DNA of 64,000 nucleotides from Lineus longissimus (lineage: Eukaryota > Nemertea > Pilidiophora > Heteronemertea > Lineidae), in NCBI RefSeq assembly GCF_910592395.1, contig NC_088311.1:19844501-19908500 (forward strand). Reading direction: 5' to 3'. This document shows positions 1 through 13,869 of this stretch, one piece after another. The position numbers and the translations under genes were made by a program. Below the pieces are notes generated by a model. The model saw only the letters and a list, made by a program, of their open reading frames with translations, ran no database searches and was not told the origin of the DNA. Each line of letters starts with the position of its first letter. The stretch's first letter is position 1.

Positions 1-1
1 T

Positions 2-928
2 CAATTCTGCCGTAATTGTAAAAGGTGGACACTTTTTGAGTATCAAAAAAACTTGAATTCAGCAAGGTACGCAGCTAAAACTGTGAAGTATCAATTCTGC
101 ACCAATTGCAATTCGACTACTTACGACGATGATTTTAAAACTCTTGAGATCAATATTGACAACAAGACACGTTACTTTGACAGTATTCTAAGGAAACTTG
201 GATGGAGTCGGCTGTCCGAATCGGCAGTTAAGTATTTAAAGGACTTTGTGGAAGGGTATTTACAGTGCTACTTTTCAAGTCACAGAAAATGTCTTAGTAA
301 GCAGAGATATGAAAGTACTCTTCAGTCAGCCCTAAAAATGGGTATTAACACTCTCCCCTCTAAGTTATGTAACCAAGGGTTACATGGTGAAGCCATGCTT
401 TTTAAATTTCACTGTGGGGAATATGATTGGTTTCTTGCCATTGAATTTATTAACAGGGCAATTGGTAAACCGCAATTAACCGATGAGAATATCACTGACC
501 TTAGACTAGTGTACTATGCTTTCCTTAGATTTCTGCATTACTGTGGTGTCAAGGTCACCATTAACTACAAGGTATTTTTACACCAAGCCTTTAAAACGCT
601 GAAAATTGATTATGTAATATTTACACCTTTTTTAACCAACAAGGAGCGAGTAAATGATTTGGAGATATTATGGTATGATTTCACTCAAAGTATTTTCTTC
701 CAGAATTACAAGGTTGAGAAGGAATATGACCAGGATATTGACAAGCAGTTTGACGTTTTATTGGGTGTTAGTGCAGGTCGAGACATTAACTACATCAGTA
801 ATATTAAGTTTACACCAGCCGGACTTCGTCCTGAGAGCACAGCTCGAGCCGGACTTCGTCCTGAGAACACAGCTCGAGCCGGACTTCGTCCTGAGAGCAT
901 AGCTCGAGCTAGTGTTAAGATGCAATAA
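2..928 (+). CDS. Unidentified element protein, 5' end cut by window edge
   Basis: The frame is already open at base 2 and runs to a stop at 926-928, so this is the C-terminal part of a longer gene whose start lies left of the window. The visible N-terminal part carries two C-x2-C pairs (FCRNC and FCTNC), which suggests a zinc-binding ribbon. The middle is a mixed alpha/beta-looking stretch rich in aromatic residues that I do not recognise. The C-terminus is made almost entirely of three tandem 10-residue units (AGLRPESTAR and variants) encoded by the double-hairpin repeat at 821-909; these look like an added tail, not part of an ancestral fold. It lies upstream of, and collinear with, the 980 and 1881 genes. 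No function is assigned. Confidence 0.7.
   Translation, partial: QFCRNCKRWTLFEYQKNLNSARYAAKTVKYQFCTNCNSTTYDDDFKTLEINIDNKTRYFDSILRKLGWSRLSESAVKYLKDFVEGYLQCYFSSHRKCLSKQRYESTLQSALKMGINTLPSKLCNQGLHGEAMLFKFHCGEYDWFLAIEFINRAIGKPQLTDENITDLRLVYYAFLRFLHYCGVKVTINYKVFLHQAFKTLKIDYVIFTPFLTNKERVNDLEILWYDFTQSIFFQNYKVEKEYDQDIDKQFDVLLGVSAGRDINYISNIKFTPAGLRPESTARAGLRPENTARAGLRPESIARASVKMQ
821..909 (+). repeat. Tandem triplet of double-hairpin elements
   Basis: Three copies in direct 30-bp period, each built as GGAC-TTC-GTCC, TGA, then GAGC or GAAC, a 3-nt loop and GCTC, then GA. Because the period is 30, all three are read in the same frame and add three decapeptides to the C-terminus of the first gene. The middle copy has GAAC opposite GCTC, a half-changed stem. 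Confidence 0.9.
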
Positions 929-979
929 AGTTGTGAAAACAGCATTTTGCACTTAACAGTCATTTTTCCATAATTTTAA

Positions 980-1831
980 ATGAATAATCAGCAAATGAAT
1001 AATCAGACATCTGCAGTGATTGAACAACAGATGAAACAGATTGGTGTTATGAGTCCTGAGAGCTTAGCTCGAGTTGGGGCTTCTAACCAACAGAACACTG
1101 GTAGTTACCAACAAAACAGAACTAACTTTCAACAGAACTGCTCTACAAATCAACAAGTTTCAAACAAGCAGTTGAATAGTTCAAATTTTGTTAATCCTAG
1201 TCAAGGAATAGTTAATCCCAGTCAAGGAATAGTCAATTCTAGTTGCCAACTAGGCTCAACTCGAGCTACGCTCTCAGGACAAAGTCCGACTAGCAATCAA
1301 CAAAATTTGAACTATTTGACTGATAGTGGCCTTAAAGCCAAACAAGACTTAGAGATTCTAGTTGCAACTGGTAAAAGCAAGGATTTCCTTAATAAACAAA
1401 TAACTTTTAATGACTTAGATAATATGACTGAAAAAGAAATCTTAAAACACCATAGAATGTATGAAACAAAGATGGCTGCCAGACTTAATGATTCTTTGGG
1501 TAAGACAGTAATTAAAGCTTACACTAAATTATCAAGGTGGTTATTACCAATAGATGATGAAGATAATCTTTACCATGATCTTAGAAATGATTATTTGATA
1601 ACTAACGAGTTGGATAAATGGCTTGGATGGTTGAGTTTGAGAATGGGACCATTAACTGCACTTGCCTCAACAACACTTATTACTTTAGGTCATTGTCATG
1701 AGGAATCATCTATGAATACATCGAGTATGACTGCATCAAATATGAATACACCAAATATGACTGTCTCTGAATGTGACAAATCAATAGATGAAAGTCTAGA
1801 TATCACAGGTAGTGATGATAAAGAAGACTAA
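980..1831 (+). CDS. Q/N-rich conserved element protein, function unknown
   Basis: This encodes 283 residues. The ATG sits in TTTTAAATG, matching the start context of the other element genes. Residues 1-110 are low-complexity and rich in Q, N and S, with two VNPSQGI repeats (about residues 72-85) and two double-hairpin insertions. From about residue 120 the protein becomes ordered and helical: a charged segment, then KTVIKAYTKLSRWLLPIDDE, an acidic stretch and a hydrophobic segment MGPLTALASTTLITLG near residue 230. The C-terminus is S/T/M/N-rich and acidic. The ordered part resembles a protein family I associate with animal Polintons, but its role is not known to me. It lies between the first gene and the membrane-protein gene on the same strand, 51 bp and 49 bp apart. 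Confidence 0.7.
   Translation: MNNQQMNNQTSAVIEQQMKQIGVMSPESLARVGASNQQNTGSYQQNRTNFQQNCSTNQQVSNKQLNSSNFVNPSQGIVNPSQGIVNSSCQLGSTRATLSGQSPTSNQQNLNYLTDSGLKAKQDLEILVATGKSKDFLNKQITFNDLDNMTEKEILKHHRMYETKMAARLNDSLGKTVIKAYTKLSRWLLPIDDEDNLYHDLRNDYLITNELDKWLGWLSLRMGPLTALASTTLITLGHCHEESSMNTSSMTASNMNTPNMTVSECDKSIDESLDITGSDDKED
1053..1074 (+). repeat. Partial double-hairpin element in coding sequence
   Basis: Only the 3' half is present: GTCC, TGA, then the GAGC-TTA-GCTC hairpin and GAG. It is read in frame as PESLAR in the Q/N-rich protein. The left GGAC arm is missing. Confidence 0.75.
1190..1238 (+). repeat. 21-bp coding minisatellite
   Basis: Two near-identical 21-bp units plus a partial third encode VNPSQGI, VNPSQGI and VNSS inside the low-complexity N-terminus of the 980 gene. 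Confidence 0.75.
1259..1291 (-). repeat. Double-hairpin element in coding sequence
   Basis: A complete copy, read on the plus strand as GAGC-TAC-GCTC, TCA, GGAC-AAA-GTCC. It adds TRATLSGQSPT to the 980 gene. This frame differs from two of the three used by the copies in polB. Confidence 0.9.
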
Positions 1832-1880
1832 ATTAACCTGGTTATGAGAACATAGTTCGAATTAAATTCGGCCAAGATAA

Positions 1881-2387
1881 ATGGAACTTGAAACTGTAAC
1901 TGATACTACTCGAGCTATGCTCTCAGGACAAAGTCCGACTAAAGTTTCAGTGTCTAAGAAACCTCGATCAGAGAAACAATTAGCATGGTCTAGAGAACTG
2001 GGTAGAAGATCTAAGGAATTTAAGAGGATAAAAAAGGATAAGACGACATTTAAAGTACAGGACTCCTCACCAAACAACAGAGTTGTGGAAAAGGAGGAAG
2101 AAGAATTAGAGGAAGAAGAACCACAATCTCAAAATACTGATGTATCACTGCGTGAATCTAGTAGTAATACTTATGTCTATGTACTAGGTTTAGGTGCAAT
2201 TATTTTAGCATCATTTATCATGTTTAAGAAACTTCCTAAAAAAGTAAGTAAAGAGCAGCGATCAGGCTTGAATCGAACTTTGTTCTCTGGACAAAGTCCG
2301 AATGAAGCAGTCATAAAGGGATCAATTAACCCTCTTGTTAAACCTGTAGTTAAAGAGAAGAAATGTACTATTCCTTTAATGGAATGA
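1881..2387 (+). CDS. Small single-pass membrane protein of the element
   Basis: This encodes 168 residues; the ATG lies in GATAAATGG. A double-hairpin insertion (RAMLSGQSPT) occupies residues 10-20. Then comes a basic conserved-looking block, KKPRSEKQLAWSRELGRRSK (residues 26-45), and an acidic stretch of repeated E near residue 75. One hydrophobic membrane segment follows (YVYVLGLGAIILASFIMF, about residues 99-116), then a basic stop-transfer run. A second double-hairpin insertion (NRTLFSGQSPN) lies behind the membrane segment. The basic N-terminal block plus single membrane span resembles small proteins seen in other Polintons; a virion or membrane role is inference. Its 3' end overlaps the convergent 3381 gene by 20 bp. 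Confidence 0.75.
   Translation: MELETVTDTTRAMLSGQSPTKVSVSKKPRSEKQLAWSRELGRRSKEFKRIKKDKTTFKVQDSSPNNRVVEKEEEELEEEEPQSQNTDVSLRESSSNTYVYVLGLGAIILASFIMFKKLPKKVSKEQRSGLNRTLFSGQSPNEAVIKGSINPLVKPVVKEKKCTIPLME
1908..1940 (-). repeat. Double-hairpin element near gene start
   Basis: A complete copy (GAGC-TAT-GCTC, TCA, GGAC-AAA-GTCC) only nine codons after the start codon of the 1881 gene, read in frame. Confidence 0.9.
2273..2302 (-). repeat. Double-hairpin element with changed stem
   Basis: A copy in which both arms of one stem have changed together: GAAC-TTT-GTTC instead of GAGC-NNN-GCTC, followed by GGAC-AAA-GTCC. It is in frame in the 1881 gene, after the membrane segment. Confidence 0.85.
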
Positions 2388-3381
2388 TCTCATCAGGTGG
2401 TCGAGCTTTGCTCTCTGGACTTTGTCCTAGTCCGACTTCGTCTTGAGAGCAAAGCTCGATTCTTAACTCTAAAGAAACCTCTGTTCCTCTGAAATTAACT
2501 AGCTTACCATTCTCATCAGTGATTTCGAATTTTATGTGATTAGTACACTTATTTATCGTTTTCTTACAATTCGGTTCGTATCGCTGCATTTTTATTTGGT
2601 CACCATCTTCTACAGGTATGATGCAGAAAATGTTAGATGGTTTATTGTTGTAGAGGGTCTTAGCTTTGTCAACCAAATTAGCTTGCAGGAATAGATATTT
2701 CCTGTAAAAGTTGAGTGGTCTTGTGGAGTAGTATTTTCCTTTCTTGGTGAATTTAGTTTGCTTAAAGCCAAACCACTCATTCACCACTGTGAGCTGTTTT
2801 TCTATCACCTCTCTTATGGTTTTGCTTATTTGAAAACCTTCTGTGTTTCTCTCAATCTTGATTTTTTCATTTTTATCTAACTTGTCTACTTTCAGAGGGT
2901 ACTCTTTATCCTCTGTAAGTTCAAGGGTTATGTAATTATTGTTATCACAGTAAATTTTCACATGGCTTATTCCAATTTCTTTTATGTATTTTTGCCATAC
3001 CTCACAAAACTCACTTAAACTAAAATGTCGAGAGTATGGAAATGTGTATTGAGTAATGGTGTCTTTAGTTGTGGTAGAATCATTTTCCAAATGCCGTTCG
3101 CAAATTTTCATGACTTCCTTTTCAAGTGTATCTGTTTCAAGTCCAGGAGCAAATAATGTCCTACACCATAATTGTTTATCTAAGGGCTCATGTGTTGTAA
3201 TTCTGGTTATTTCGACTAGAAATGAGAAAATCCTGACTCCCTCTGGTAGAAAATCACCTGTCCACCATGAATTGTAAAAGGTTATCGATTTCAAAGTAAT
3301 GGATTTTATGTCTAATTGGTCTGTTAAGTCGTACTCAAATTTGGCTTCATTACATTCTTGTTCATTGATTATGAAGTCCAT
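2368..3381 (-). CDS. Penton/minor-capsid-like protein (paralogue of the 11133 gene)
   Basis: This encodes 337 residues on the minus strand. Its end, with IKFEITDENGKLVNFRGTEV (about residues 281-300), closely parallels LNIRLTDEKGEIIDLNGHNV in the 11133-11900 protein. Its beginning (ITLKSITFYNSW) has the beta-strand pattern common at the start of Polinton minor capsid proteins. I infer a second penton-like or spike-like virion protein. The last ~35 codons consist of two opposed double-hairpin elements. The start is ATG at 3379-3381, preceded by TAAATAGAA. It diverges from polB across 56 bp and overlaps the 3' end of the 1881 gene. A spike-type rather than vertex role is possible. Confidence 0.6.
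   Translation of the reverse strand: MDFIINEQECNEAKFEYDLTDQLDIKSITLKSITFYNSWWTGDFLPEGVRIFSFLVEITRITTHEPLDKQLWCRTLFAPGLETDTLEKEVMKICERHLENDSTTTKDTITQYTFPYSRHFSLSEFCEVWQKYIKEIGISHVKIYCDNNNYITLELTEDKEYPLKVDKLDKNEKIKIERNTEGFQISKTIREVIEKQLTVVNEWFGFKQTKFTKKGKYYSTRPLNFYRKYLFLQANLVDKAKTLYNNKPSNIFCIIPVEDGDQIKMQRYEPNCKKTINKCTNHIKFEITDENGKLVNFRGTEVSLELRIELCSQDEVGLGQSPESKARPPDEIIPLKE
2399..2460. repeat. Opposed pair of double-hairpin elements at a convergent gene junction
   Basis: An inverted copy (GAGC-TTT-GCTC, TCT, GGAC-TTT-GTCC) is followed directly by a forward copy (GAC-TTC-GTC, TTGA, GAGC-AAA-GCTC). It lies just past the stop of the 1881 gene and codes for the C-terminus of the minus-strand gene. 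Confidence 0.9.
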
Positions 3382-3437
3382 TTCTATTTAATTCAAGATA
3401 TTTATTGAATTTAATAAATTTTAATCTAATAAATAGA
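3382..3437. promoter_or_regulatory. Divergent start region between penton-like gene and polB
   Basis: A 56-bp AT-rich space separates the two start codons. Both sides carry TAAATAGA a few bases before the ATG (AATTAAATAGAAATG on the minus strand, AATAAATAGAATG on the plus strand), which suggests a shared bidirectional promoter with short leaders. Confidence 0.5.
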
Positions 3438-6400
3438 ATGACTGATAAGAATCAGAAAATACTTTGCACTACATGTGACAAGTACATATCCTACAATAAT
3501 ATGGCTATTCACAGGAGAACCAAAGGTCACTTAAGTAAATTAAATCCGGATTATGTCCCTATTGCTCAACCCCGAGCCCAATCACTGATCCCTAAAACTA
3601 TGGATAAGAAACTTGCATTTGAGGAAAATGAGCTAGATGGCATAAAGAAAGTGAGTGGAATAGAAATAGTAAAACAATTTGGCAAGCCTGTAGTCACCAT
3701 TAGTTTGAAGATTGACAGAGAAGCTAAACAAGTGTATGAATACAGAGATAAATTAGAGGAGGTATTATTTCAACTCAATGATTACCATCACAAAATTAGC
3801 ATATCAGTATTTGCTCAGTTTGATCGTCAGGGTGAAAGTGTAACACACCCCATACAGTCTCCAATGGAAAGCATAATTTCAAGGAACCAGGCAATTTATG
3901 CCATAACCAACCAGTTAAACTACATTAAGACACAGATTGAGGAAAGGTACTTTCAAGGTTCTGGACTTACTTTAAATAAAATAGAGTCTTGTAACATGAC
4001 CATCTGTTCTTACAAGAGGTGTAAAGGTGGTCATTACACTAAATTACCATTTAAAACAAAAGCAGTAATAAATGTGGAATCAAATGACAATAAATGTTTT
4101 CTCTGGTCTTTATTGGCCGCTAAATATCTGAAAGAAAATCCAGAGACGGACTTTGTCCTGAGAGCAGAGCTCGAGAGTACATTCAATATCACTACCGATA
4201 TCAAAATCAAATCATTTCCTGTATGTATTCAAAAGGATATCCCTAAGATAGAGAGTGATAATAATCTCAAAATTAATGTGTTCAAGTTAGAGAACGAATC
4301 GGCTAAGAGCACATGTGAGGCAAAACTAGAACCTCTCTACCTGTCCAAGAATTATGATGATGATGATGTCATCGATCTGTTGTATTTCAAGGACCATTTC
4401 ATGTACATAAGAGACATCAATCTTTTCTTCAGGACACTAGCTCATAGAGTGTATCTTTGCAGGAGATGCATGAATTACTTTTACAGGAAGTCAACACTAG
4501 AAAAACATAAAAAGAAATGTGGAGAACACGATTACTGTAAGATTACTTTGCCTCCACCTAACAGTAAATGGTCACAAATTAAATTTGAAAAACACTCATT
4601 CAAAAATAGAGTTCCGTTTGTGATCTATGCTGATTTCGAAGCGATAAGCGAACCTTGTTCTTCTGCCGAAGGCAACATACCAGTAGTATCAGTAGAGCCA
4701 CCTATGATGAAAGAACCGAGTTCAAAGAAACTTTTTAAACAAAATGCATCAGCTGTTGGTGTTTATGTTCACTCAGACTACACACACCTTTACAGTAGCC
4801 AGTATGTGTCTCACAGGGGTGCTGATGTTGTAGATGTGTTCTGTAATTGGTTAATCAGGATGGAAGAACAATTCTCTAATTTATTGAACTGTAACTTTCC
4901 TCTAACAATGACAGATGAAGACTCGAGCTCTGCTCTCAGGACGAAGTCCGACTGGCATAAATATCAATTAGAGACACATTGTTACTATTGTAATCAACCT
5001 TTGGGATATGACAAGGTCAAGGATCATGATCACTACTGTGGTAGATATCGAGGTGCTGCTCACAACTCGTGTAATTTGAATGAAAAGAAAGCTATGTTTG
5101 TTCCAGTGTTTTTTCACAATCTCAGTAATTACGATTCTCACTTATTTATTAAAGAATTAATGAATAAGCTACCGAAGTACAAGAAACTGAAAATACTTGC
5201 CAAAACATCAGTGGACGCAAATAATCTCTACGGCTGGTCCATGATGGAACCTCAACCCTATGGTAGTTTTGAAATGATAGATATTGATCCACTCGAGCTA
5301 TGCTCTCAGGACAAAGCTCGACTTAACATGAATGTTATCAGTAAAGAGCAGATTATGGCAATTCCAAGTGATAGTGAAGTAGGCTACTTTTTAGAGGTTG
5401 ATTTGGAGTATCCAGGAAATATTAAATTTAAGTCAAGGAACTTTCCATTCTGTCCCGAATCTCTCTTTATTGAAGATGATGAATTAAGTCCTTACCAGAG
5501 AGAGTTACTGGGCGATGATAAAAGATCAAATGTAGAGAAACTAATACTAACACAAAAGGATAAAACTAATTACATAGTGCATTACAGAATGCTACAATTT
5601 TACCTAAAGCACGGAATGGTACTTAAGAGGGTTCATTCAGTGATAAGCTTTAAACAATCAAAGTGGTTAGCACCATACATTGATTTTAACACTAAAAGAC
5701 GTATGGATTCTAAGACTGATTTTGAGAAAGACTATTTTAAACTGATGAACAATGCGTTCTATGGAAAAACTTGTGAGAATGTAAGGAACAGGGTTGAAAT
5801 TGAATTTGTATCGGACGGGGAGAGAGCCAGGAATGTAATGGCCAATCCCAGGTTTTCATCGATATGCGTATTTGACGAACATAATGCTGCTATTAGCATG
5901 AGGAAAACATCAATGAAATTCAACAAACCAATCTACATAGGAGCTTCAGTACTTGAATTGTCTAAATTATTAATGTATGAATTCTATTATGAAGTTCTTC
6001 AACCGTACTTTGGTGAGAAAAATATTGAACTGCTGTATCTTGATACAGATTCCTTTGTACTTAACATTAATACTGATGACTTAACTAAAGACTTAAAGGA
6101 GTTGAAACACTATTTTGACTTCAGTAATTATCCAAAAGATCATCCACTCTATGACACCAGTAAGAAGAAGGTACCAGGCTACTTTAAGGATGAGCTAGGA
6201 GGAGTAGAGATGACTGAATTCATTGCCCTGAGAAGTAAGATGTACGCTTACAGGACCAAGACTATGTCTGGAGAGCAAGGATCGACAAAAGATTACGATT
6301 CTAAGAAATTGAAGGGTATTGCCAAGAATGTAGTAAGGAGAAATATCTCATTTGATGACTATGTTGATTGTCTTGAAAAGAGTAGGTCATTTTACCACAA

Positions 6401-6572
6401 GATGAGACACTTAAGATCAGATAAACACCAAATCTATTTGGAAGAAGTTGACAAAAAAAGCCTCAGTCCTTTTGATGACAAGAGGTTCATACTTGAAGAT
6501 GGAATAAGCACCTTACCATTTGGAATGTATTATGAAGGCTACATAGATTACAGCGATTCAAACTTCGCTTGA
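3438..6572 (+). CDS. PolB: Protein-primed family B DNA polymerase, internally deleted
   Basis: This encodes 1044 residues from the ATG at 3438; the frame is open for 11 codons upstream without another ATG. Zinc-finger-like motifs lie at the N-terminus (CTTCDKYISYNNMAIHRRTK), around nt 4455-4530 (CRRC with HKKKC) and around nt 4975-5085 (CYYC, then DHDHYCGRYRGAAH). Exo I is D399-x-E401, Exo II N564-YD566, motif A begins at D593 (DANNLYGW), motif B at K768 (KLMNNAFYG) and motif C is D869-T-D871. Only 27 residues separate Exo II from motif A, where relatives have a long segment of very roughly 200 or more residues with the Exo III tyrosine/aspartate motif. That piece is missing in frame, so proofreading is likely lost and the enzyme is probably inactive. 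Three double-hairpin elements interrupt the gene in three frame relations. Confidence 0.92.
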   Translation: MTDKNQKILCTTCDKYISYNNMAIHRRTKGHLSKLNPDYVPIAQPRAQSLIPKTMDKKLAFEENELDGIKKVSGIEIVKQFGKPVVTISLKIDREAKQVYEYRDKLEEVLFQLNDYHHKISISVFAQFDRQGESVTHPIQSPMESIISRNQAIYAITNQLNYIKTQIEERYFQGSGLTLNKIESCNMTICSYKRCKGGHYTKLPFKTKAVINVESNDNKCFLWSLLAAKYLKENPETDFVLRAELESTFNITTDIKIKSFPVCIQKDIPKIESDNNLKINVFKLENESAKSTCEAKLEPLYLSKNYDDDDVIDLLYFKDHFMYIRDINLFFRTLAHRVYLCRRCMNYFYRKSTLEKHKKKCGEHDYCKITLPPPNSKWSQIKFEKHSFKNRVPFVIYADFEAISEPCSSAEGNIPVVSVEPPMMKEPSSKKLFKQNASAVGVYVHSDYTHLYSSQYVSHRGADVVDVFCNWLIRMEEQFSNLLNCNFPLTMTDEDSSSALRTKSDWHKYQLETHCYYCNQPLGYDKVKDHDHYCGRYRGAAHNSCNLNEKKAMFVPVFFHNLSNYDSHLFIKELMNKLPKYKKLKILAKTSVDANNLYGWSMMEPQPYGSFEMIDIDPLELCSQDKARLNMNVISKEQIMAIPSDSEVGYFLEVDLEYPGNIKFKSRNFPFCPESLFIEDDELSPYQRELLGDDKRSNVEKLILTQKDKTNYIVHYRMLQFYLKHGMVLKRVHSVISFKQSKWLAPYIDFNTKRRMDSKTDFEKDYFKLMNNAFYGKTCENVRNRVEIEFVSDGERARNVMANPRFSSICVFDEHNAAISMRKTSMKFNKPIYIGASVLELSKLLMYEFYYEVLQPYFGEKNIELLYLDTDSFVLNINTDDLTKDLKELKHYFDFSNYPKDHPLYDTSKKKVPGYFKDELGGVEMTEFIALRSKMYAYRTKTMSGEQGSTKDYDSKKLKGIAKNVVRRNISFDDYVDCLEKSRSFYHKMRHLRSDKHQIYLEEVDKKSLSPFDDKRFILEDGISTLPFGMYYEGYIDYSDSNFA
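4147..4175 (+). repeat. Double-hairpin element in polB (first)
   Basis: A forward copy (GGAC-TTT-GTCC, TGA, GAGC-AGA-GCTC) read as DFVLRAELE, residues about 237-246. In this frame the common ATA loop would create a TAG stop; the AGA loop avoids it. Confidence 0.9.
4921..4953 (-). repeat. Double-hairpin element in polB (second)
   Basis: An inverted copy (GAGC-TCT-GCTC, TCA, GGAC-GAA-GTCC) read as SSSALRTKSD shortly before the CYYC zinc motif. Confidence 0.9.
5291..5323 (-). repeat. Double-hairpin element in polB (third)
   Basis: An inverted copy read in yet another frame as LELCSQDKARL between motifs A and B. The second stem is imperfect (GGAC opposite GCTC), as if the last arm had been swapped for the other stem's arm. 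Confidence 0.85.
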
Positions 6573-6603
6573 GTCGGACTACGTCCAGAGAACAAAGTTC
6601 GAT
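6573..6603 (+). repeat. Double-hairpin element abutting the polB stop codon
   Basis: GGAC-TAC-GTCC, AGA, GAAC-AAA-GTTC, GA begins within a few bases of the TGA stop. The second stem has the double change GAAC/GTTC. Confidence 0.85.
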
Positions 6604-6708
6604 TAAACTAATGAATAGGGTGGTGCTGATGGTAGTGTTACTTGGTGAAATTCATCCCTAACACCGAAGTCATGATAATAGTGATAGTGATACACCACAT
6701 TAGGATTA
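6604..6708. other. Short noncoding spacer after polB
   Basis: A roughly 100-bp noncoding spacer between hairpin clusters. GTGGTG near its start and CACCAC near its end could pair. Nothing else is seen. Confidence 0.4.
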
Positions 6709-6785
6709 GGACGTAGTCCGGGTCCGACTTCGTCTTGAGAGCATAGCTCGAGTCGAACTTTGTTCTCTGGACGTAGTCCGGGTCC
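6709..6785. repeat. Hairpin cluster at the polB / 7453 convergent junction
   Basis: A lone GGAC-GTA-GTCC hairpin (6709-6719) is followed by a forward copy (GAC-TTC-GTC, TTGA, GAGC-ATA-GCTC) and an opposed copy (GAAC-TTT-GTTC, TCT, GGAC-GTA-GTCC). The block GGACGTAGTCCGGGTCC occurs at both edges. Confidence 0.9.
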
Positions 6786-6793
6786 TGTTTGAT

Positions 6794-7453
6794 TTACTGA
6801 ACTTTTAGTTTTTCTAGCATCTCTGTCTGTGCTAGTTTTTTTCCTTCTTCTAAAAAAGTCTTCTTTAAAGACTCTACATCAACAGCTGAACTTGCCTCCC
6901 TTTGTTTTTTCCTAATGGCATTTTTCATCGAAATGTATTTCTCCTTCTCCTTGAGAATCAAAGTAAACTCATCTGTAGATATGTGAGAATCGGTTAAGGC
7001 TTTACTAACCAAATCATTGATTGTGTTCAGTTTTGAAATTGCCAACATTCTGATATTCTCATGCTTTTCAATTTTCTTAAGAATATTCTTTTTCTCCCAG
7101 CCTAAGGCTGATGAAATAATGGCACTACCTATTGTTACGCCACCCAAAGCTAAGCCTATCGGTGCCGTGATTACACCAGCTAGAGCGGAAACACCAACAG
7201 ATCCGGCTGCTACGCTAGTTAAATTAAGGAAATGGCTAATGCCAGTAATTACGCTAAATGCTTTTTTGTACTTTGAAAATATCTTTCTTCTAAATTCAAT
7301 CTCGCTTTCTAAGAAACTCTTAACCTCACATATTTGTTGTAGTCTGAAAGCCTGAGGGTTACTTTCTGTATGCTTTTCAGACCTTTCATAGTTCAAATGA
7401 CTTTCAGAGTTTAAATTACTTAAATCTGGATAAACCTTATTGACTCCATCCAT
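6794..7453 (-). CDS. Glycine-rich membrane-active element protein
   Basis: This encodes 219 residues; the ATG lies in ATTAAATGG. The N-terminal third is charged and helical (ICEVKSFLESEIEFRRKIFS). The centre, about residues 78-117, is a long small-residue hydrophobic stretch (AAGSVGVSALAGVITAPIGL and onward) that could form one or two glycine-zipper membrane helices. The C-terminal half is a predicted coiled coil rich in K and E. I recognise this architecture as common in animal Polintons but know no proven function; membrane remodelling or a capsid-internal membrane role is inference. It starts 4 bp after the stop of the 7727 gene, so the TAAATG start word follows directly on the upstream stop codon. 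Confidence 0.65.
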   Translation of the reverse strand: MDGVNKVYPDLSNLNSESHLNYERSEKHTESNPQAFRLQQICEVKSFLESEIEFRRKIFSKYKKAFSVITGISHFLNLTSVAAGSVGVSALAGVITAPIGLALGGVTIGSAIISSALGWEKKNILKKIEKHENIRMLAISKLNTINDLVSKALTDSHISTDEFTLILKEKEKYISMKNAIRKKQREASSAVDVESLKKTFLEEGKKLAQTEMLEKLKVQ

Positions 7454-7457
7454 TTAA

Positions 7458-7727
7458 TTAGTGGGAATAACTAGAATCAGTTGTTCTGTCATTTCTAGTG
7501 TTTAGTGTTGATCCTACAGACACTACAGGTTTTTGAAGTACATTAAATTTTAAAGGTTTTTCTGACCCAACAGGTTTTTCTGTCCCAGCAGGCACAGCAG
7601 GTTTTAAAGGTTTTTCGGGACCAGGCTCCAACTTTGACTCTACTTCTGCCTCTAATTCTCTATGAAATCGTTCTAATCTTTCTTTCCAATTACGTGGTCG
7701 TTTTGTGTAACCCCAAGTTCTATTCAT
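7458..7727 (-). CDS. Small basic/proline-rich element protein
   Basis: This encodes 89 residues; the ATG lies in AATTAAATG. The N-terminus is basic and aromatic (WGYTKRPRNWKERLERFHRE), then repeated EKPLKP/EKPVGSEKPLK proline-lysine motifs, then a polar S/T tail. No domain is recognised. The gene sits tightly between the 7453 gene (4 bp) and the HNH-like gene (19 bp), all on the minus strand. The start context and lack of overlap support a real gene. Its small, basic and extended nature would suit a DNA- or capsid-associated protein, but that is a guess. Confidence 0.5.
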   Translation of the reverse strand: MNRTWGYTKRPRNWKERLERFHRELEAEVESKLEPGPEKPLKPAVPAGTEKPVGSEKPLKFNVLQKPVVSVGSTLNTRNDRTTDSSYSH

Positions 7728-7746
7728 TTAATTAAGTAAAATAAAA

Positions 7747-8733
7747 TCAATTCACTGCAAAGAGTAAATTTCTTTCAAGTCTATTATTCAACTTAATCAT
7801 CTCGTTTATGATTTCTGTCTGACTACATATGTTAATGTTCTGGTTCATTCTCATGTTATTATTTAAATTCGATAATCTATCAAGCAGAATCATATTTTCA
7901 TCACGAAGATAATCCCCGAAATGCTGTGATATCACTATTTTCCAATTTGGTATTACATCCTGGTCTCGAAAGACAAACCAGTTTTCACTTCTCATTTTTA
8001 CCATGAAATCCATTGACCTATCCAATTGATCCTTAAATAGTGTGTAGTCTACTTTAGCACTCTTCTGTCTGTTTTGTGTTTTAGACATTGGTCTAATGTT
8101 AAACCAAGCAAAGCACAGTTCAGGTTTATCTTTGAATTCCTTGATTGGTAAGACATGATCCAACTCTTCTTCTACTATTCGAACTCTTTTCTCGGGACTT
8201 TGTCCTATTGGAGATAGACTCCTCTGGTACTTTAACCACTGTGAGAAGAAACTGTCTGTACATCCTAGATTGAATGATGAATTACCGGTCGGACTTCGTC
8301 CTGAGAGCAGAGCTCGAGTACACTCTCCCTCAGAAATGCGGTTTAGACCAACTCTAATTTTGTGTCTGTCTCTATTACCATTTTGGTCAAGGTAATCCTT
8401 TTTGTAATATGAATTAAAACATGATCTGCAGTTACCTCTATTTCCGTCTTTACCAAATTCACCATCACTTAGTAATTTATTTTCATAACATTTATTACAT
8501 CCCTTGATTTTACTTGAACCACATTCTTTACAGTAATCAAGTAGTTTATTACGCCTGTTCTTTTCAAAATTAATTTCAGGTTTCTTTTCACAGCACTTAA
8601 CACAATAAATTATAGGTCCTGAAATTACTGGTTGTTGCTGATACATAGGTTGCTGCTGAAACATAGGTTGCTGCTGATACATAGGTTGTTGCTGATACAC
8701 ATTGACAGTAGCATTAAATATTGCTCCATCCAT
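7747..8733 (-). CDS. Zinc-ribbon plus HNH-like nuclease-type protein
   Basis: This encodes 328 residues. The N-terminus has four QQQPMY-type repeats (residues 14-35). A cysteine-rich region follows, with CVKCC, CKEC, CNKC and CRSC pairs (about residues 45-105), which would make two or more zinc sites. A double-hairpin insertion (TRALLSGRSPT) comes next, then LDHVLPIKEF with downstream CFAWFNIRPMSKTQNRQKS. This D-H-x-L-P ... N-x-R-P ... N-x-x-K-S pattern is typical of HNH-type endonucleases that place a histidine and an asparagine around a metal. I infer a DNA nuclease; catalysis is untested. The C-terminal 100 residues look helical. The ATG is preceded by TAAATAAAGAAAGAA, a longer leader than most neighbours have. 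A partial hairpin element (GGAC-TTT-GTCC) encodes SPIGQSP. Confidence 0.65.
   Translation of the reverse strand: MDGAIFNATVNVYQQQPMYQQQPMFQQQPMYQQQPVISGPIIYCVKCCEKKPEINFEKNRRNKLLDYCKECGSSKIKGCNKCYENKLLSDGEFGKDGNRGNCRSCFNSYYKKDYLDQNGNRDRHKIRVGLNRISEGECTRALLSGRSPTGNSSFNLGCTDSFFSQWLKYQRSLSPIGQSPEKRVRIVEEELDHVLPIKEFKDKPELCFAWFNIRPMSKTQNRQKSAKVDYTLFKDQLDRSMDFMVKMRSENWFVFRDQDVIPNWKIVISQHFGDYLRDENMILLDRLSNLNNNMRMNQNINICSQTEIINEMIKLNNRLERNLLFAVN
8179..8206. repeat. Degenerate double-hairpin element
   Basis: GGAC-TTT-GTCC is intact; the partner stem (GAACTCTTTTCTC) is degraded. It lies just upstream of the HNH motif in the minus-strand gene. Confidence 0.6.
8288..8319 (+). repeat. Double-hairpin element between zinc and HNH regions
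   Basis: A complete forward copy (GGAC-TTC-GTCC, TGA, GAGC-AGA-GCTC), read on the minus strand as TRALLSGRSPT, located in the linker between two domains. Confidence 0.9.
8625..8698 (-). repeat. 18-bp repeat encoding QQQPMY
   Basis: About four 18-bp units on the minus strand encode QQQPMY, QQQPMF, QQQPMY and QQQPVI near the N-terminus of the HNH-like protein. Confidence 0.8.
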
Positions 8734-8780
8734 TTCTTTCTTTATTTAGTAGGACATTTTTTTTTTAAATTACGTTTTTC

Positions 8781-8806
8781 GAACTTGTTCTTGTGACTTA
8801 AGTCAC
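8781..8806. repeat. Palindrome pair downstream of integrase
   Basis: GAACTTGTTC (10-bp palindrome) and GTGACTTAAGTCAC (14-bp palindrome) lie adjacent between the integrase stop and the HNH gene start. The layout is like a double-hairpin element whose loops have been lost. Confidence 0.5.
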
Positions 8807-8821
8807 TTTAGAGACTTTATT

Positions 8822-9973
8822 TCATTTCAATGATTTGATATCAGAAACTGGTAACCATTCATTGAACTTATCACTGTAACCCTTCCACTTCACTAATCCG
8901 TATTTCTTGCCTTTACTGGTCTTGTACCTTAGGATTTTCTCGATCTTGTACTCTAGCTGGTCAGGATTAGGAACATAGCTCAATTCCTCTTCATAGAAAT
9001 ATCCTTGAATTTCTTCTTTGTGGTAATCCTCAAGCTGGTAGACGATAGGGTGAGTAAATATGATCTGTTTGATTTGGAACACCTCCTCAGTGTAGTTGGG
9101 CATGTAACCTTTACCGAAAATGGACTTGTACTTTGAAATTCTTACACTGTCACCTACTTTGTACTTTGGATCACCAAATGTCTCTTTGAGGTGAAGACCG
9201 TAAAGATTGTACCACACTGTTCCTTCGTTTTCCATCTTTCTGGCGTCTACAGGTTTCATACCTATTGATGAGTGAAATGTGTTATTGTAGCCGCTGACCA
9301 GGTCATCCAGAACGTCAATCCACTTGTCAGTCTCCTTAGCGGTGAAATAACGCCACATTTTTTCTTTAAGGGTTCTATTGAATCTCTCTACTACTGCTGC
9401 CTTCTTATCAGATTTTGTGGAGAACCATTCTATGTCATTTTCTGTTAAGAGTTCCTTGAAGTGTTTGTTGTAAAATTCTTTACCGTCATCAAACTGGATT
9501 TTCGTTGGTTTTGCTTCCTCAAATATCACTTTAAATGCATCTCTGATTTCTTCTCCCCTCTTACTCTTAACTGCTAGAGCCCAAGAAAAACGACTAAATA
9601 GATCTATGACTGTTAAAATGAATCTGTTGCCTTTATTTTGTTTCTCGAATTTCTGCATATCCACAAGATCTGCTTGCCATTGTTGATCGATGTACGATAC
9701 CATTGTCTTCCTGAAGGTGAATTTCTTAATGGCCGGTTTGTGTAGTTGGTGAGTTGGTAGTGTTTCTAGAAATTCTTTCACTTCTTTTTTTTTAATAAGT
9801 TTTCCTGAGCGGGACTTTGTCCCTAACAACGAAGTTGTGCTCTGCTCTCGTGACGAAGTCATATCTTCCTTGACCTGTTTCCAGATTTTACTCAAAGAAC
9901 TGTAAGCCACGGGACTCTCGGGGTTGTAGTACAAATCCCTTAGATACTGCTGTGTGTCATCCTTTACATTCAT
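8822..9973 (-). CDS. INT: Retroviral-type integrase with chromodomain
   Basis: This encodes 383 residues on the minus strand and would catalyse insertion of element DNA into the host genome. The rve core has D102 (QWQADLVDM), D162 (FDDGKEF) and E196 (VVERFNRT), with 33 residues between the last two, so the catalytic triad is complete. The last 43 residues (341-383: EYKIEKILRY, LVKWKGYSDK, NEWLPVSDIK) form a chromodomain, which in related integrases can direct insertion to modified histones. Residues 39-56 are an insertion built from hairpin repeats. Unlike polB this enzyme looks intact. Its ATG is 4 bp from that of the ATPase gene on the opposite strand, within the palindrome CATTTAAATG. Confidence 0.93.
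   Translation of the reverse strand: MNVKDDTQQYLRDLYYNPESPVAYSSLSKIWKQVKEDMTSSREQSTTSLLGTKSRSGKLIKKKEVKEFLETLPTHQLHKPAIKKFTFRKTMVSYIDQQWQADLVDMQKFEKQNKGNRFILTVIDLFSRFSWALAVKSKRGEEIRDAFKVIFEEAKPTKIQFDDGKEFYNKHFKELLTENDIEWFSTKSDKKAAVVERFNRTLKEKMWRYFTAKETDKWIDVLDDLVSGYNNTFHSSIGMKPVDARKMENEGTVWYNLYGLHLKETFGDPKYKVGDSVRISKYKSIFGKGYMPNYTEEVFQIKQIIFTHPIVYQLEDYHKEEIQGYFYEEELSYVPNPDQLEYKIEKILRYKTSKGKKYGLVKWKGYSDKFNEWLPVSDIKSLK
9810..9869. repeat. Multi-hairpin insertion in integrase N-terminus
   Basis: Successive short stems with 3-nt loops: GGGAC-TTT-GTCCC, ACAAC-GAA-GTTGT, GCTC-T-GCTC (unpaired) and TGAC-GAA-GTCA. The architecture is that of the double-hairpin repeat but the stem sequences differ, as if it were an expanded or diverged copy. 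It encodes integrase residues about 36-55 without breaking the frame. Confidence 0.7.
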
Positions 9974-9980
9974 TTAAATG
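9971..9980. promoter_or_regulatory. Palindromic head-to-head start site, CATTTAAATG
   Basis: The two start codons are the two ends of a perfect 10-bp palindrome; only TTAA separates them. Each ATG therefore reads as TTTAAATG on its own strand. Neither gene can have an upstream leader without crossing the other gene's start codon. Confidence 0.7.
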
Positions 9981-10598
9981 AGTGAAGTATTTATTTACGA
10001 GCCACACAATATGTTAATTTCTGGTGTTACCAATTGTGGTAAGACATATTTTGCCCTTGACCTCTTAGAAAAGGAGTATCGGCACAAGTTCCAGAACATA
10101 GTAATTTTCTGTCCAACATATTTCAACAATAAGACATATGAAAGGAAATGGATTTACCAAGACAAGAACGTCTACATAGTTAATCCCGAAGCTGTGGCCA
10201 GTAATTTGGACCTTGTGCTTCAGTTTGCTACTCTGACCTTTGCTGGTTCTAACACATTATTCCTCATTGATGACTGTGCTAATTTGAGAGACACAAAAAA
10301 GAAGGTGTCCGAGTTATGTAATCTTGCCTTTTCCGGCAGGCACTACAATCTCACTGTTTGGTTACTAGTTCAGAAGTACAATTCAGTTGTTAAGGACTAC
10401 AGAGAGAACATAAGAATTTTAGTATTATTTTTTAATAAGGATGAATCAGCCATGAAAGATGCCTTAGAAGAAAACAGTGTTATTCCTAAGGAGAAAAGAC
10501 AGTACTACATAGAAGAACTTAAGATGAAAAAAGGATCAAAACTGATCATTAGACTACAACATCCATTTGGATTTACTCTTTCACATCAAAAATCTTAG
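9978..10598 (+). CDS. ATP: FtsK/A32-like genome-packaging ATPase
   Basis: This encodes 206 residues. Walker A is GVTNCGKT (residues 16-23) and Walker B is TLFLIDDC (residues 93-100), with D98-D99 as the acidic pair. The short length and FCPTYF strand after Walker A fit the A32-type packaging ATPases of Polintons and related double-jelly-roll viruses, which pump DNA into the capsid. The motifs are intact. It is the only plus-strand gene among the morphogenesis genes, starting head-to-head with integrase and ending 53 bp before the convergent 10652 gene end. Confidence 0.9.
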   Translation: MSEVFIYEPHNMLISGVTNCGKTYFALDLLEKEYRHKFQNIVIFCPTYFNNKTYERKWIYQDKNVYIVNPEAVASNLDLVLQFATLTFAGSNTLFLIDDCANLRDTKKKVSELCNLAFSGRHYNLTVWLLVQKYNSVVKDYRENIRILVLFFNKDESAMKDALEENSVIPKEKRQYYIEELKMKKGSKLIIRLQHPFGFTLSHQKS

Positions 10599-10611
10599 TC
10601 CCGCTTCTCAT

Positions 10612-10668
10612 CATCAGGACTGTGTCCGATCATCAGGACTGTGTCCGATCATCAGGACTGTGTCCGAT
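10612..10668. repeat. Three tandem 19-bp single-hairpin repeats at a convergent junction
   Basis: Three perfect 19-bp units (CATCAGGACTGTGTCCGAT), each holding GGAC-TGT-GTCC, the same stem as half a double-hairpin element. They lie just after the ATPase stop and include the last codons of the convergent 10652 gene. Confidence 0.9.
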
Positions 10669-11110
10669 CAGTTGTCTTAGTCTTTCTAACCCTAGTAAAA
10701 TAATAAATTATTAACCCTAAACCACTAAGTCCTAGGATAATCCATAGGTATTCGTATTTCTTCATTTCATCACTAGGTTGGTAGTAATCACTTAATTGTG
10801 GTCGCTGAGGTAGTACAATAGTTCTTTCTGGATGTAAATGATTGTAAACAGTAAGTGCTGAATCAGTATTGTTAAAATCAATAGAAGCGTCTCTTTCTCT
10901 CTTTAATTCAAGATTAACGAAGTCAATGGTACTTTTCCTATGCTCCTCCCATTCGGTTGAAGCTTTTTGTAATTGCTCCTGAGCCAAATCATGTCTTTTC
11001 ACTTCAGTCTCATAGCCATTCTTGTCTAGTTTTTTAAAAAGGTAACCGGATCCAGTGAATGCTAATCCATTGATTATTGCAGATCCAAATAACATGCCAA
11101 TGCCAGCCAT
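10652..11110 (-). CDS. Small two-segment membrane protein of the element
   Basis: This encodes 152 residues; the ATG lies in ATTAAATGG. The N-terminus is a glycine-rich hydrophobic stretch (MAGIGMLFGSAIINGLAFTG). The middle is helical and charged, with EQLQKASTEWEEHRKS. A clear membrane helix follows near the C-terminus (YLWIILGLSGLGLIIYYF, about residues 121-138), then basic residues. The pattern is familiar from other animal Polintons, where such proteins are thought to be virion or membrane-associated, but no function is proven. The last few codons come from the 19-bp hairpin repeats. It precedes the penton-like gene on the same strand by 22 bp. Confidence 0.7.
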   Translation of the reverse strand: MAGIGMLFGSAIINGLAFTGSGYLFKKLDKNGYETEVKRHDLAQEQLQKASTEWEEHRKSTIDFVNLELKRERDASIDFNNTDSALTVYNHLHPERTIVLPQRPQLSDYYQPSDEMKKYEYLWIILGLSGLGLIIYYFTRVRKTKTTDRTQS

Positions 11111-11132
11111 TTAATTCCAATGAATTTTAATT

Positions 11133-11900
11133 TCAATGATGTGTCCCTGAGAGCATAGCTCGAGTTAATACCAATTGGTACTGTACATTATGACCATTAA
11201 GATCGATGATTTCACCTTTTTCATCAGTTAAGCGAATATTCAGCTTATTGAATCTTGGTTTACAGGGAATTGCTATTGGTTTCTCAAATGTGTATGCTAT
11301 TAAATCCCCAAAATTAGCTTCCTTTATTGGTCTTGTGGTTAGCACATCAGATGCTTCACCATTACTTAATACACTATTAGATTCGATTATGTCACAGTGA
11401 AAAACAAAATTGTTAATTGGTCTAAAATTGATGGGTTTCTCGCTTACAACATCATCCTTACTTTTATTGTCTAAAGGGTAAGGCCATTCTGATTTCATGC
11501 CAAATAATTCATTACTTTTACCAATAAAATAGATCTGATAATGCGCCTCATTTTTTCTCTTTAGGAAGTGTAAGATGGCCTTACCTGTTGGTTCTTCAAG
11601 GTCAAATCTGACAGCACCTCTACTCATACTATTTTCTTTCAACTTATCCGCAAATACTTTTGAAAAGCTCTGTAGGTCATAGAGACCATCTGGTAGCGTA
11701 ATCTCTGCCACATCAAACCCCTTAACTTTGATTCGGTTATTCTCCCTGGCTGCACTTATGTTGTAGAATGTACAAGGTATTACTGCAAAAGTTAAAGTGA
11801 TGCTACATGCATCTTGAATTTCAGTCTTGAGATTGACTGTTAAATCACTTGAACTCTGATCTGGATAGTCACTTGAATCTATGTTCATTACAGTAACCAT
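11133..11900 (-). CDS. Penton-like minor capsid protein
   Basis: This encodes 255 residues; the first ATG lies in AGTAAATGG, which favours it over the ATG four codons later. Beta-rich throughout, it begins SSSDLTVNLKTEIQDACSIT and ends with LNIRLTDEKGEIIDLNGHNV, the arrangement of single-jelly-roll vertex (penton) proteins of Polintons and adintoviruses. It should occupy the fivefold vertices of a capsid made by the 12273 protein; that is family knowledge, not shown here. The extreme C-terminus (TRAMLSGTHH) is derived from a partial double-hairpin element. It shares its C-terminal motif with the 2368-3381 gene, so the element carries two such proteins. Confidence 0.75.
   Translation of the reverse strand: MVTVMNIDSSDYPDQSSSDLTVNLKTEIQDACSITLTFAVIPCTFYNISAARENNRIKVKGFDVAEITLPDGLYDLQSFSKVFADKLKENSMSRGAVRFDLEEPTGKAILHFLKRKNEAHYQIYFIGKSNELFGMKSEWPYPLDNKSKDDVVSEKPINFRPINNFVFHCDIIESNSVLSNGEASDVLTTRPIKEANFGDLIAYTFEKPIAIPCKPRFNKLNIRLTDEKGEIIDLNGHNVQYQLVLTRAMLSGTHH
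11139..11166 (+). repeat. Partial double-hairpin element at penton gene 3' end
   Basis: GTCC, CTGA, then GAGC-ATA-GCTC and GAG. The GGAC arm is missing. It encodes the last residues of the penton-like protein. Confidence 0.8.
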
Positions 11901-11957
11901 TTACTTAAGCAAATTTTCGTTTTCAAATTTACCTTTTATCAAATAAGTAAATTATTC

Positions 11958-12194
11958 TTACTTCATAATATTTCTGGGTAGGATTCCTTGATCGTAAAGG
12001 TACTCTAATGTTCCATTACTAATAGCTACAGTTCCTCCCAGTTTAAGAATTTCCTCTAGGTTGGCCTGACTTGGGGGACCAATATTGATTCTCAAGAACC
12101 TTTTCAGTAACATAGAGTAACCAATTGTTGTTGATGCCAACAGTAAACTTTGATACAGTGTATTTATGATATCTTTCTTTCCTGGTGTATCCAT
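11958..12194 (-). CDS. Small hydrophobic element protein
   Basis: This encodes 78 residues; the ATG lies in AATTAAATGG. A hydrophobic N-terminal helix (LYQSLLLASTTIGYSMLLKR) is followed by a basic turn and a second, weaker segment, LEEILKLGGTVAISNGTLEY, that could pack on a membrane. No enzymatic motif is seen. It lies between the penton-like and major capsid genes on the same strand. The start context and position argue that it is real; similar tiny proteins occur beside capsid genes in related elements, so a virion role is a reasonable guess. Confidence 0.6.
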   Translation of the reverse strand: MDTPGKKDIINTLYQSLLLASTTIGYSMLLKRFLRINIGPPSQANLEEILKLGGTVAISNGTLEYLYDQGILPRNIMK

Positions 12195-12246
12195 TTAATT
12201 ACTTAGAAAATCACTAGTAAAACTCATTTATCTAGTATTCAGTGTT

Positions 12247-12284
12247 GGAGCGAACTTTGTTCTTGCAGCACCTCAGTGCTGGAG
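12247..12284. repeat. Hairpins at the major capsid gene 3' end
   Basis: GAAC-TTT-GTTC is followed by CAGCAC-CTCA-GTGCTG across the stop codon of the major capsid gene (TGA at 12273-12275, minus strand). The first stem matches the variant double-hairpin stem; the second is different and longer. Confidence 0.6.
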
Positions 12285-13529: not shown

Positions 13530-13741
13530 TTTCTATTTATTTACTAGTAAAATTATGTACATGCAGTGAACAGTGCCAACATCATATATCAGGTAAAATG
13601 CACGGAAAAAAGCTATTGACGTGTACTTTCTGTTGGAATACAGTAAGTCATGATTACATTAACCCATTGAACTCTAGTATTCCCTCACCATTTCATTGAC
13701 CATTTCACTGCAACGCTTCACTGGGAATCTAATGAATGATA
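13530..13741. other. Noncoding right margin of the element
   Basis: AT-rich sequence upstream of the capsid gene start, with no supported gene. The right terminus of the element is probably here or within the next several hundred bases. It cannot be fixed because the left terminal repeat is outside the window. Confidence 0.4.
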
Positions 13742-13869
13742 GAATATATGTATTGTGGTGTCTGGTTCTTAGGGGTTTCTAAGCTAATTTGAGACAAAAA
13801 GGCCTGTAAGGGCTTTTTTTAAAATAGCTTAGAATTACCTACATTCCTACCACCACAATACATATATTC
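13742..13869. repeat. 128-bp foldback (long hairpin)
   Basis: The outer arms are a perfect 19-bp inverted repeat (GAATATATGTATTGTGGTG at 13742-13760 and its complement at 13851-13869). An inner pair, TTCTAAGCTA / TAGCTTAGAA, and AAAAAGGCC / GGGCTTTTTTT extend the pairing almost to the tip. It could be a small foldback transposon, the inner edge of the element's terminal region, or an RNA-forming hairpin. Confidence 0.8.

Follow-up and report, generated by a model that had tools for sequence, protein, structure and literature searches.

Small palindromic or non-autonomous elements are known from organelles, bacteria and viruses. The GC clusters of yeast mitochondria include GC42, a 42-nt, short palindromic element with many copies and a putative AG target duplication, for which copy-number turnover, merger and shuffling, and a constrained structure have been described (PMC4478555). 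Double-hairpin elements of fungal mitochondrial DNA, known from Allomyces, have been proposed to be mobile (cited in PMC5910586). The Rickettsia palindromic elements, of about 150 bp, lie in-frame in unrelated genes and are translated as a short peptide (PMC10969869), and the genomes of the giant Pandoravirus carry non-autonomous miniature inverted-repeat transposable elements (MITEs) (PMC4495683). Here we examine a double-hairpin repeat that lies within a Polinton, a virus-like transposon, in the genome of the ribbon worm Lineus longissimus. The stretch analyzed, hereafter the window, comprises 64,000 nt of contig NC_088311.1 (positions 19,844,501 to 19,908,500), of which the first 13.9 kb is part of the Polinton.

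Judging from comparisons of Polinton sequences, the repeat is very likely a 28-nt non-autonomous mobile element of worm Polintons that would insert via a short staggered cut. The precise alternation of filled and empty orthologous sites, together with target duplication at many sites, makes a non-autonomous mobile element very likely, and the element is likely moved by a putative trans-acting enzyme.

Results

An initial annotation of the window had described a shared double-hairpin design in about 20 copies, present in at least seven genes and confined to the Polinton part. The pattern of the first hairpin, GGACNNNGTCC, matched 18 times in the window versus 0.34 expected by shuffling, and that of the second hairpin, GAGCNNNGCTC, 13 times versus 0.45; the hairpins joined by a gap of 2-6 nt gave 9 matches and none in any shuffle. 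All strict hairpin matches fell within 821-11161 and none at 14-64 kb. When a looser criterion was employed, requiring 14 or more of 21 fixed positions, 23 copies were recovered in window 1-13900, three of them marginal (score 14). Eighteen of these, one marginal, were inside nine predicted open reading frames (ORFs) and represent in-frame insertions in unrelated genes, and the other five were intergenic versus 7.5% expected (p 0.026), several being at gene ends. The best score in the 50-kb flank was 14 (three stretches), none reached 15, and 22 stretches reached 13, versus 12.6 on average when the sequence was mononucleotide-shuffled five times. The initial observation was thus confirmed, and it extends beyond the window. 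The last match of the annotation, at about 12240-12284, proved to be a different local repeat: positions 12239-12284 hold a separate unit with GAACTTTGTTC, outside the double-hairpin family, within a longer unit that is tandem in the compared stretch L056.

The layout of the unit is C-GGAC-NNN-GTCC-TGA-GAGC-NNN-GCTC-G-A, with two adjacent predicted stem-loops. The two hairpins of the initial description stand, and the full unit is 27 nt plus an A; the spacer consensus is TGA, with CGA and AGA as frequent variants, and the TCA listed as a second spacer is merely TGA read on the opposite strand. Good copies mostly have identical two bases on either side, with a usual target of A-N-N and AGT the commonest. 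The base 3' of the 27-nt unit was A in 201 of 203 good copies, while the base three positions 5' was A in 169 of the 203; in 144 copies the last two flanking bases matched, and in 13 of these only the first base was mismatched, the A being invariably the right-hand one. Because of this asymmetry, we prefer to place the A within the element, which would then be 28 nt long, terminate in A and duplicate 2 bp of its A-N-N target; reading it as 27 nt with 3 bp duplicated is nearly equivalent. At the termini of the unit a single base pairs (67% of 298 copies), and terminal inverted repeats were not found.

The hairpins are maintained through compensatory changes. Among 92 distinct copies with scores of at least 15, 33 pair positions had changed on both sides and still paired, versus 3 in each control in which the pairing was slid by -2, -1 or +1, while 59 changes in stem pairs were one-sided. 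Covariation was pronounced at pairs 2-12 and 18-24 (p 4e-11 and 1e-13, respectively). An exact scan for 5-bp stems did not pick up the family, whose stems are only 4 bp long. A known structured RNA was considered and rejected, as the three Rfam matches in window 1-14000 were sub-threshold (E up to 1) and did not overlap any copy.

Orthologous Polinton stretches revealed precise filled and empty differences, with flanks mostly 80-100% identical. At site 1911, for example, four stretches (L042, L043, L045 and L055) have a single ACT where the window has a 27-nt unit between two ACT. Clean empty sites, which the initial annotation had named as supporting evidence, were found both among Polinton copies and in orthologues of the nuclease gene, in which site 8290 is an exact ten-residue empty site in L039, L044 and L052 and is filled in the window and L053. 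At site 4924 within the DNA polymerase gene (PolB), all 14 of the protein relatives covering the site have a ten-column gap. The integrase sequence VKEDGKLIK of L042 and L056 is extended by 19 residues in the window.

Insertions and deletions were then counted where a gap of 12-150 nt had 40 nt or more of sequence to either side in a high-scoring segment pair of at least 200 nt, and those with a minimum score of 14 and a minimum length of 20 were taken as hairpin-bearing; distinct filled loci were tallied per locus and position and are not independent events. Thirty nucleotides was the length of 233 of the 389 hairpin-bearing indels, with 298 a multiple of 30 and 352 a multiple of 3. A further 51 indels of 30 nt fell below the score within the insert, 13 having a copy in the context and 38 having none; the 38 were mostly a local 30-nt tandem repeat, and one set, in L041, L050 and L052, resembles a shifted double hairpin.

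Of 43 site signatures taken from 20 Polinton stretches plus the window, 25 had flanks with exactly 3 bp duplicated, which can equally be counted as 2 bp and the A. A was first in 25 of the 25 and T third in 21, the duplicated triplets being AGT (11), ATT (4), ACT (4), AGC (3), AGA (1), ATC (1) and AAT (1). Among the 203 copies scoring at least 17, 131 had flanks in agreement over 3 bp, compared with a mean of 36.8 and a maximum of 51 in 500 shuffles, and 144 had flanks in agreement over 2 bp.

Because the usual net gain of 30 nt equals ten codons, genes with copies keep an open frame. The copies within genes of the window use all six frames, and a frame-specific peptide function was therefore rejected. 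In the window, the frame in which the spacer TGA would read as stop is occupied only where the spacer is GGA (PolB 6258) or CGA (an integrase copy), or where TGA is the stop codon of the gene itself, as in the array at 10602-10670, whose TGA ends ORF 10652-11110 (-).

Site occupancy changes between closely related Polintons. Fourteen pairs of stretches diverged by less than 1% had 23 hairpin indels in 46 kb, which can be gains, losses or conversions. The rate climbed to 11.3 per 10 kb at 8-15% divergence and was 1.8 per 10 kb at 15-35%, the latter low count perhaps due to distant alignments breaking at such places. Two copies appear old, since the 1262 copy, and apparently the 6258 copy, are shared with the diverged stretch L048. 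No copy is present in L048 at sites 4924 and 5294, nor in the proteins of other species at 4924, which points to gain at these two sites as judged from the alignments. In the integrase, a second lineage (L047, L063) has copies a few residues from those of the main lineage, and the L. longissimus protein P0134 has a similar insert, GHSPESIA.

Exact matches to GGACNNNGTCCTGAGAGCNNNGCTC number 1,593 in the assembly of 391,118,348 bases in 30 contigs, with 807 on the forward strand and 786 on the reverse strand; the reversed control pattern was absent (0 copies). On contig C1, 96 strict copies were sampled among the matches listed, from 8.63 to 14.66 Mb, and the 10-kb surroundings of 91 were fetched. 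All 91 were in Polintons, 87 within Polinton-homologous intervals and 4 at most 134 bp off, in internal gaps. A second sample was made up of 100 of the 165 places of a rarer loop class. Seventy-six of the 100 were less than 16 kb from a scored copy of the Polinton ATPase gene, versus about 1.2% by chance; of the other 24, 3 were in C1 Polintons and 12 in ten one-kb stretches that were all Polinton sequence. No copy was found outside Polinton DNA in the 91 C1 surroundings or in the ten one-kb stretches elsewhere. The copies are located on chromosome-scale contigs inside Polintons and not in a mitochondrial genome. Neither the strict nor the looser patterns matched any of the viral contigs searched (0), the strict pattern matched none of the other genome contigs searched (0), and no such repeat family was seen among the displayed families (at most the 5 largest each) of six distant PolB loci, L001-L007 minus L005.

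These results agree with the proposal of the initial annotation that the repeat spread within the virus-like element and not in the host, since all copies whose surroundings were read sit in Polinton DNA. Copies common in host DNA did not appear at the places read on C1 and elsewhere, nor did orthologous genes all have the same residues, many sites being without them. Confinement to one virus-like genome has to be revised: the hosts of the repeat are a large family, with 150 scored ATPase copies, together with a second lineage whose DNA identity is about 70-82%.

The integrase, A32-like ATPase, PolB and a weakly matched capsid gene are encoded in one element (Table 1), the gene set of a Polinton, presumably of the protein-primed type. 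PolB also had a sub-threshold match to Endonuclease_7 (E=2.7e-4). The nuclease ORF had no relatives in the protein search, NCBIfam or solved structures. At least 150 ATPase copies were listed at 98-100% protein identity (150 of 529 candidates scored), and these near-identical copies indicate a very recent expansion of the Polinton. Scans of viral contigs with single ATPase and major capsid protein sequences gave no loci, and PolB profiles gave only the distant relatives L001-L007; a PolB piece had no match in phage records.

Several further observations were made on the host element and its relatives. At 5205-5220 the PolB of the window is without an internal stretch of about 600 nt found in other copies, with a junction overlap of 4-5 nt and the frame open, and the window copy of the Polinton is probably defective. 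Three ATPase copies at C19:4334739-4353480 are spaced at about 9.06 kb and contain a single in-frame TGA each; a broken Polinton segment has probably been repeated in tandem there. Close to the right end of the Polinton (window 13741-13870) lies an imperfect palindrome of 130 nt, which has related sequence at the far end of other copies and probably belongs to terminal repeats. Protein P0121, assigned to Bartonella sp. CL29QHWL and coming from a 1,226-nt contig, shares 94% identity with the Polinton integrase and is probably contamination; it begins just past the integrase insertion point, a weak hint of an empty site. The metagenomic PolB relative P0006 has intein-type Pfam domains and, at a different site, a triple repeat of GETSALLN that may represent another kind of short insertion element. 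Loci L003-L007 are Polinton-type PolB genes on contigs of bacterial metagenome-assembled genomes and probably represent eukaryotic or viral contamination.

Table 1. Copies of the double-hairpin repeat and Polinton genes, by position in the window. L handles denote compared Polinton stretches.
Position	Strand	Feature	Context, residues and flanks	Other stretches or relatives
820-846, 850-876, 880-906	+	three tandem copies, 30-nt period	ORF 53-928; each flanked by AGC	0, 1, 2, 3, 4 or 7 copies (site 820..906)
1045..1071	+	copy without most of hairpin 1	ORF 980-1831; SPESLAR	
1262..1288	-	full copy	ORF 980-1831; RATLSGQSP; + strand flanks ACT/ACT	empty in L041, L042, L043, L055; filled in diverged L048 with same loops and ACT flanks
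1833..1859	+	degenerate copy, second hairpin retained; score 14, marginal	intergenic	
1911..1937	-	full copy	ORF 1881-2387; RAMLSGQSP; ACT/ACT	see text
2274..2300	-	copy	ORF 1881-2387; RTLFSGQSP; AAT/AAT	absent from L042, L045
2402-2428, 2432-2458	-, +	head-to-head pair	C-terminus of ORF 2368-3381 (-)	
3405..6572	+	PolB		relatives in many animal and metagenomic contigs, including adintovirus PolB
4147..4173	+	full copy	PolB; DFVLRAELE; AGA/AGA	
4924..4950	-	full copy	PolB; SSSALRTKS; ACT/ACT	empty in L041, L044, L050, L057; filled in L039; two copies in L042, L045
5294..5320	-	copy	PolB; ELCSQDKAR; ACT/ACT	empty in L042, L045, L049, L057
6258..6284	+	degenerate, probably old copy	PolB; TMSGEQGST; GGA spacer	covering protein relatives with 7-10 column gaps
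6575..6601	+	copy	directly after PolB stop codon	recombinant junctions
6709..6780		cluster: one single hairpin, copies 6724-6750 (+) and 6754-6780 (-)	intergenic, convergent genes	
7747..8733	-	endonuclease-VII-like HNH gene	phrog_1035, E=9.6e-8; HNH by eye	
8180..8206	-	copy	endonuclease-VII-like ORF; GQSPEKRVR	empty in L045
8290..8316	+	full copy	endonuclease-VII-like ORF; RALLSGRSP	see text
8822..9973	-	integrase	rve plus chromodomain	
9806..9862	-	57-nt double insertion	integrase N-terminus, after VKED	absent in L042, L045, L056; single 27-nt unit in L049, L052
9978..10598	+	packaging ATPase, A32-type	Pox_A32	
10602..10670	-	19-nt single-hairpin array, mostly first hairpins (pattern matches at 10602-10666); marginal		absent in L045, L056
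11136..11162	+	copy with damaged hairpin 1	C-terminus of ORF 11133-11900 (-)	full in L056
12273..13529	-	probable major capsid protein	Capsid_N, E=0.0033, below curated cut-off	

Discussion

Movement of the element would take place on Polinton DNA during replication, when the hairpins may be recognized either in displaced single-stranded DNA or in a cruciform. The staggered cut would come from a trans-acting nuclease, and ligation plus fill-in would leave the target duplication. Endonuclease VII cleaves branched DNA, and the endonuclease-VII-like HNH protein of the Polinton itself is a candidate for this nuclease. Tandem arrays may form via unequal recombination or re-insertion next to a copy, and precise loss of copies, or their replacement when an empty Polinton acts as donor in conversion, is probable as well. 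It is a tentative suggestion, one we hold with less than even confidence, that the repeat is a 28-nt parasite moved only on Polinton DNA by the branched-DNA nuclease of the Polinton and colonizing essential genes in every frame. If this were true, the arithmetic of 28 + 2 = 30 nt and the nearly stop-free sequence would permit its entry into essential viral genes.

A number of observations weigh against a mobile element of this kind. Eighteen of the 43 site signatures have no exact 3-bp duplication, some being tandem, recombined or old, and the insertion in the integrase has a 27-nt step without clear duplication, in a region that is itself variable around the insert in the alignment with other species. 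Copies at the same site are related, and the counts of copies and shuffles are not counts of independent events. Since site 1262 is filled in L048, the empty sites there in L041, L042, L043 and L055 probably reflect losses or conversions and do not represent the ancestral state. Site 4924, filled in L042 and L045 but empty in nearer copies, shows a patchiness that needs recombination, re-use or precise loss. In the second sample of the assembly, 9 of the 100 places were unassigned, and the 76 near an ATPase copy were placed by distance alone. The predicted DNA hairpins are weak, at about -4 kcal/mol, with no clear gain in stability over shuffles (z 0.01, -1.58 and -0.95). The link to the nuclease comes from one profile match, and the single-sequence fold of that protein was uninformative, with a predicted local distance difference test score (pLDDT) of 36.

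Part of this pattern would be explained if there had been few insertions, followed by gene conversion or recombination among Polintons and precise loss, which is partly compatible with the insertion of a mobile element. The patchiness at 4924, the recombinant junctions at 6575 and the apparent sharing of 1262 and 6258 with L048 all fit such a history. The 43 site signatures nonetheless still demand many primary insertions, L048 lacks copies at both 4924 and 5294 while other species lack one at 4924, and the integrase copies of the two lineages lie at different points; we therefore consider it unlikely that conversion and loss are the main explanation. Spread without a cutting enzyme, by template switching or slippage of the protein-primed polymerase at the hairpins, was the suggestion of the initial annotation, and the 30-nt tandem units at 820-906 and the shuffled clusters at 2402-2458 and 6709-6780 fit slippage and recombination, just as confinement to a replicating element fits any process linked to Polinton replication. 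Template switching, however, predicts variable ends and microhomology to the donor flanks, not a constant unit with a target duplication. The scattered single copies, with A first in every exact duplication of an A-N-N target and a usual gain of 30 nt, point instead to a staggered cut, and we regard template switching as improbable.

The repeats might also be old functional signals of the Polinton, for replication, packaging or transcript ends, or selected peptides, with the empty sites representing losses. Covarying stems, the excess of intergenic copies with several at gene ends, and the two sites apparently common to both lineages would be in keeping with such a role. Occupancy differs, however, between copies less than 1% diverged, the use of six frames leaves no single selected peptide, and the relatives in other species are without residues at PolB 4924, all of which make a functional signal very improbable. 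The insertion of a small mobile element by a staggered cut remains our preferred explanation, and the repeat is very probably mobile DNA living on a transposon-virus. It provides a route for viral proteins to acquire ten-residue insertions without frameshift.

The repeat resembles the known systems in kind. With the yeast GC clusters it shares being a short, palindromic, non-coding, multi-copy element with a short target duplication (putative in yeast), turnover, shuffling and a constrained structure; the GC element is 42 nt and mitochondrial, whereas the unit here, likened by description, is 28 nt, has mostly AGT-type targets and resides in a nuclear Polinton of an animal. The fungal double-hairpin elements have in common with it two adjacent hairpins and a proposed mobility, and differ in being mitochondrial, whereas the present element sits in a nuclear Polinton, usually adds 30 nt and has a target duplication that could be mapped. 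The Rickettsia palindromic elements are likewise palindromic and in-frame within unrelated genes, but are about 150 bp and found in bacterial chromosomes, whereas the 28-nt unit uses six frames and was seen in one kind of mobile element only. The MITEs of giant viruses are similar in being non-autonomous and residing in a large DNA virus genome. Classical MITEs have terminal inverted repeats matching a transposase, whereas the ends here pair over a single base.

We know of no proven mobilizing enzyme for the organellar and Rickettsia palindromic mini-elements, and to our knowledge a 28-nt unit is among the smallest mobile DNA elements. No report of such an element in Polintons was found in the accessible portions of the open-access literature searched. 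The kind of element is known already from the GC clusters, the fungal double-hairpin elements and the Rickettsia palindromic elements; what is new, as far as the literature searched shows, is that it sits in an animal nuclear Polinton, is very small, usually adds 30 nt and is confined to one kind of host element. The Polinton repeat adds to these systems a nuclear, very high-copy case that has recently turned over within a defined set of genes and whose ends, target and duplication are mapped, making the question of the enzyme a testable one.

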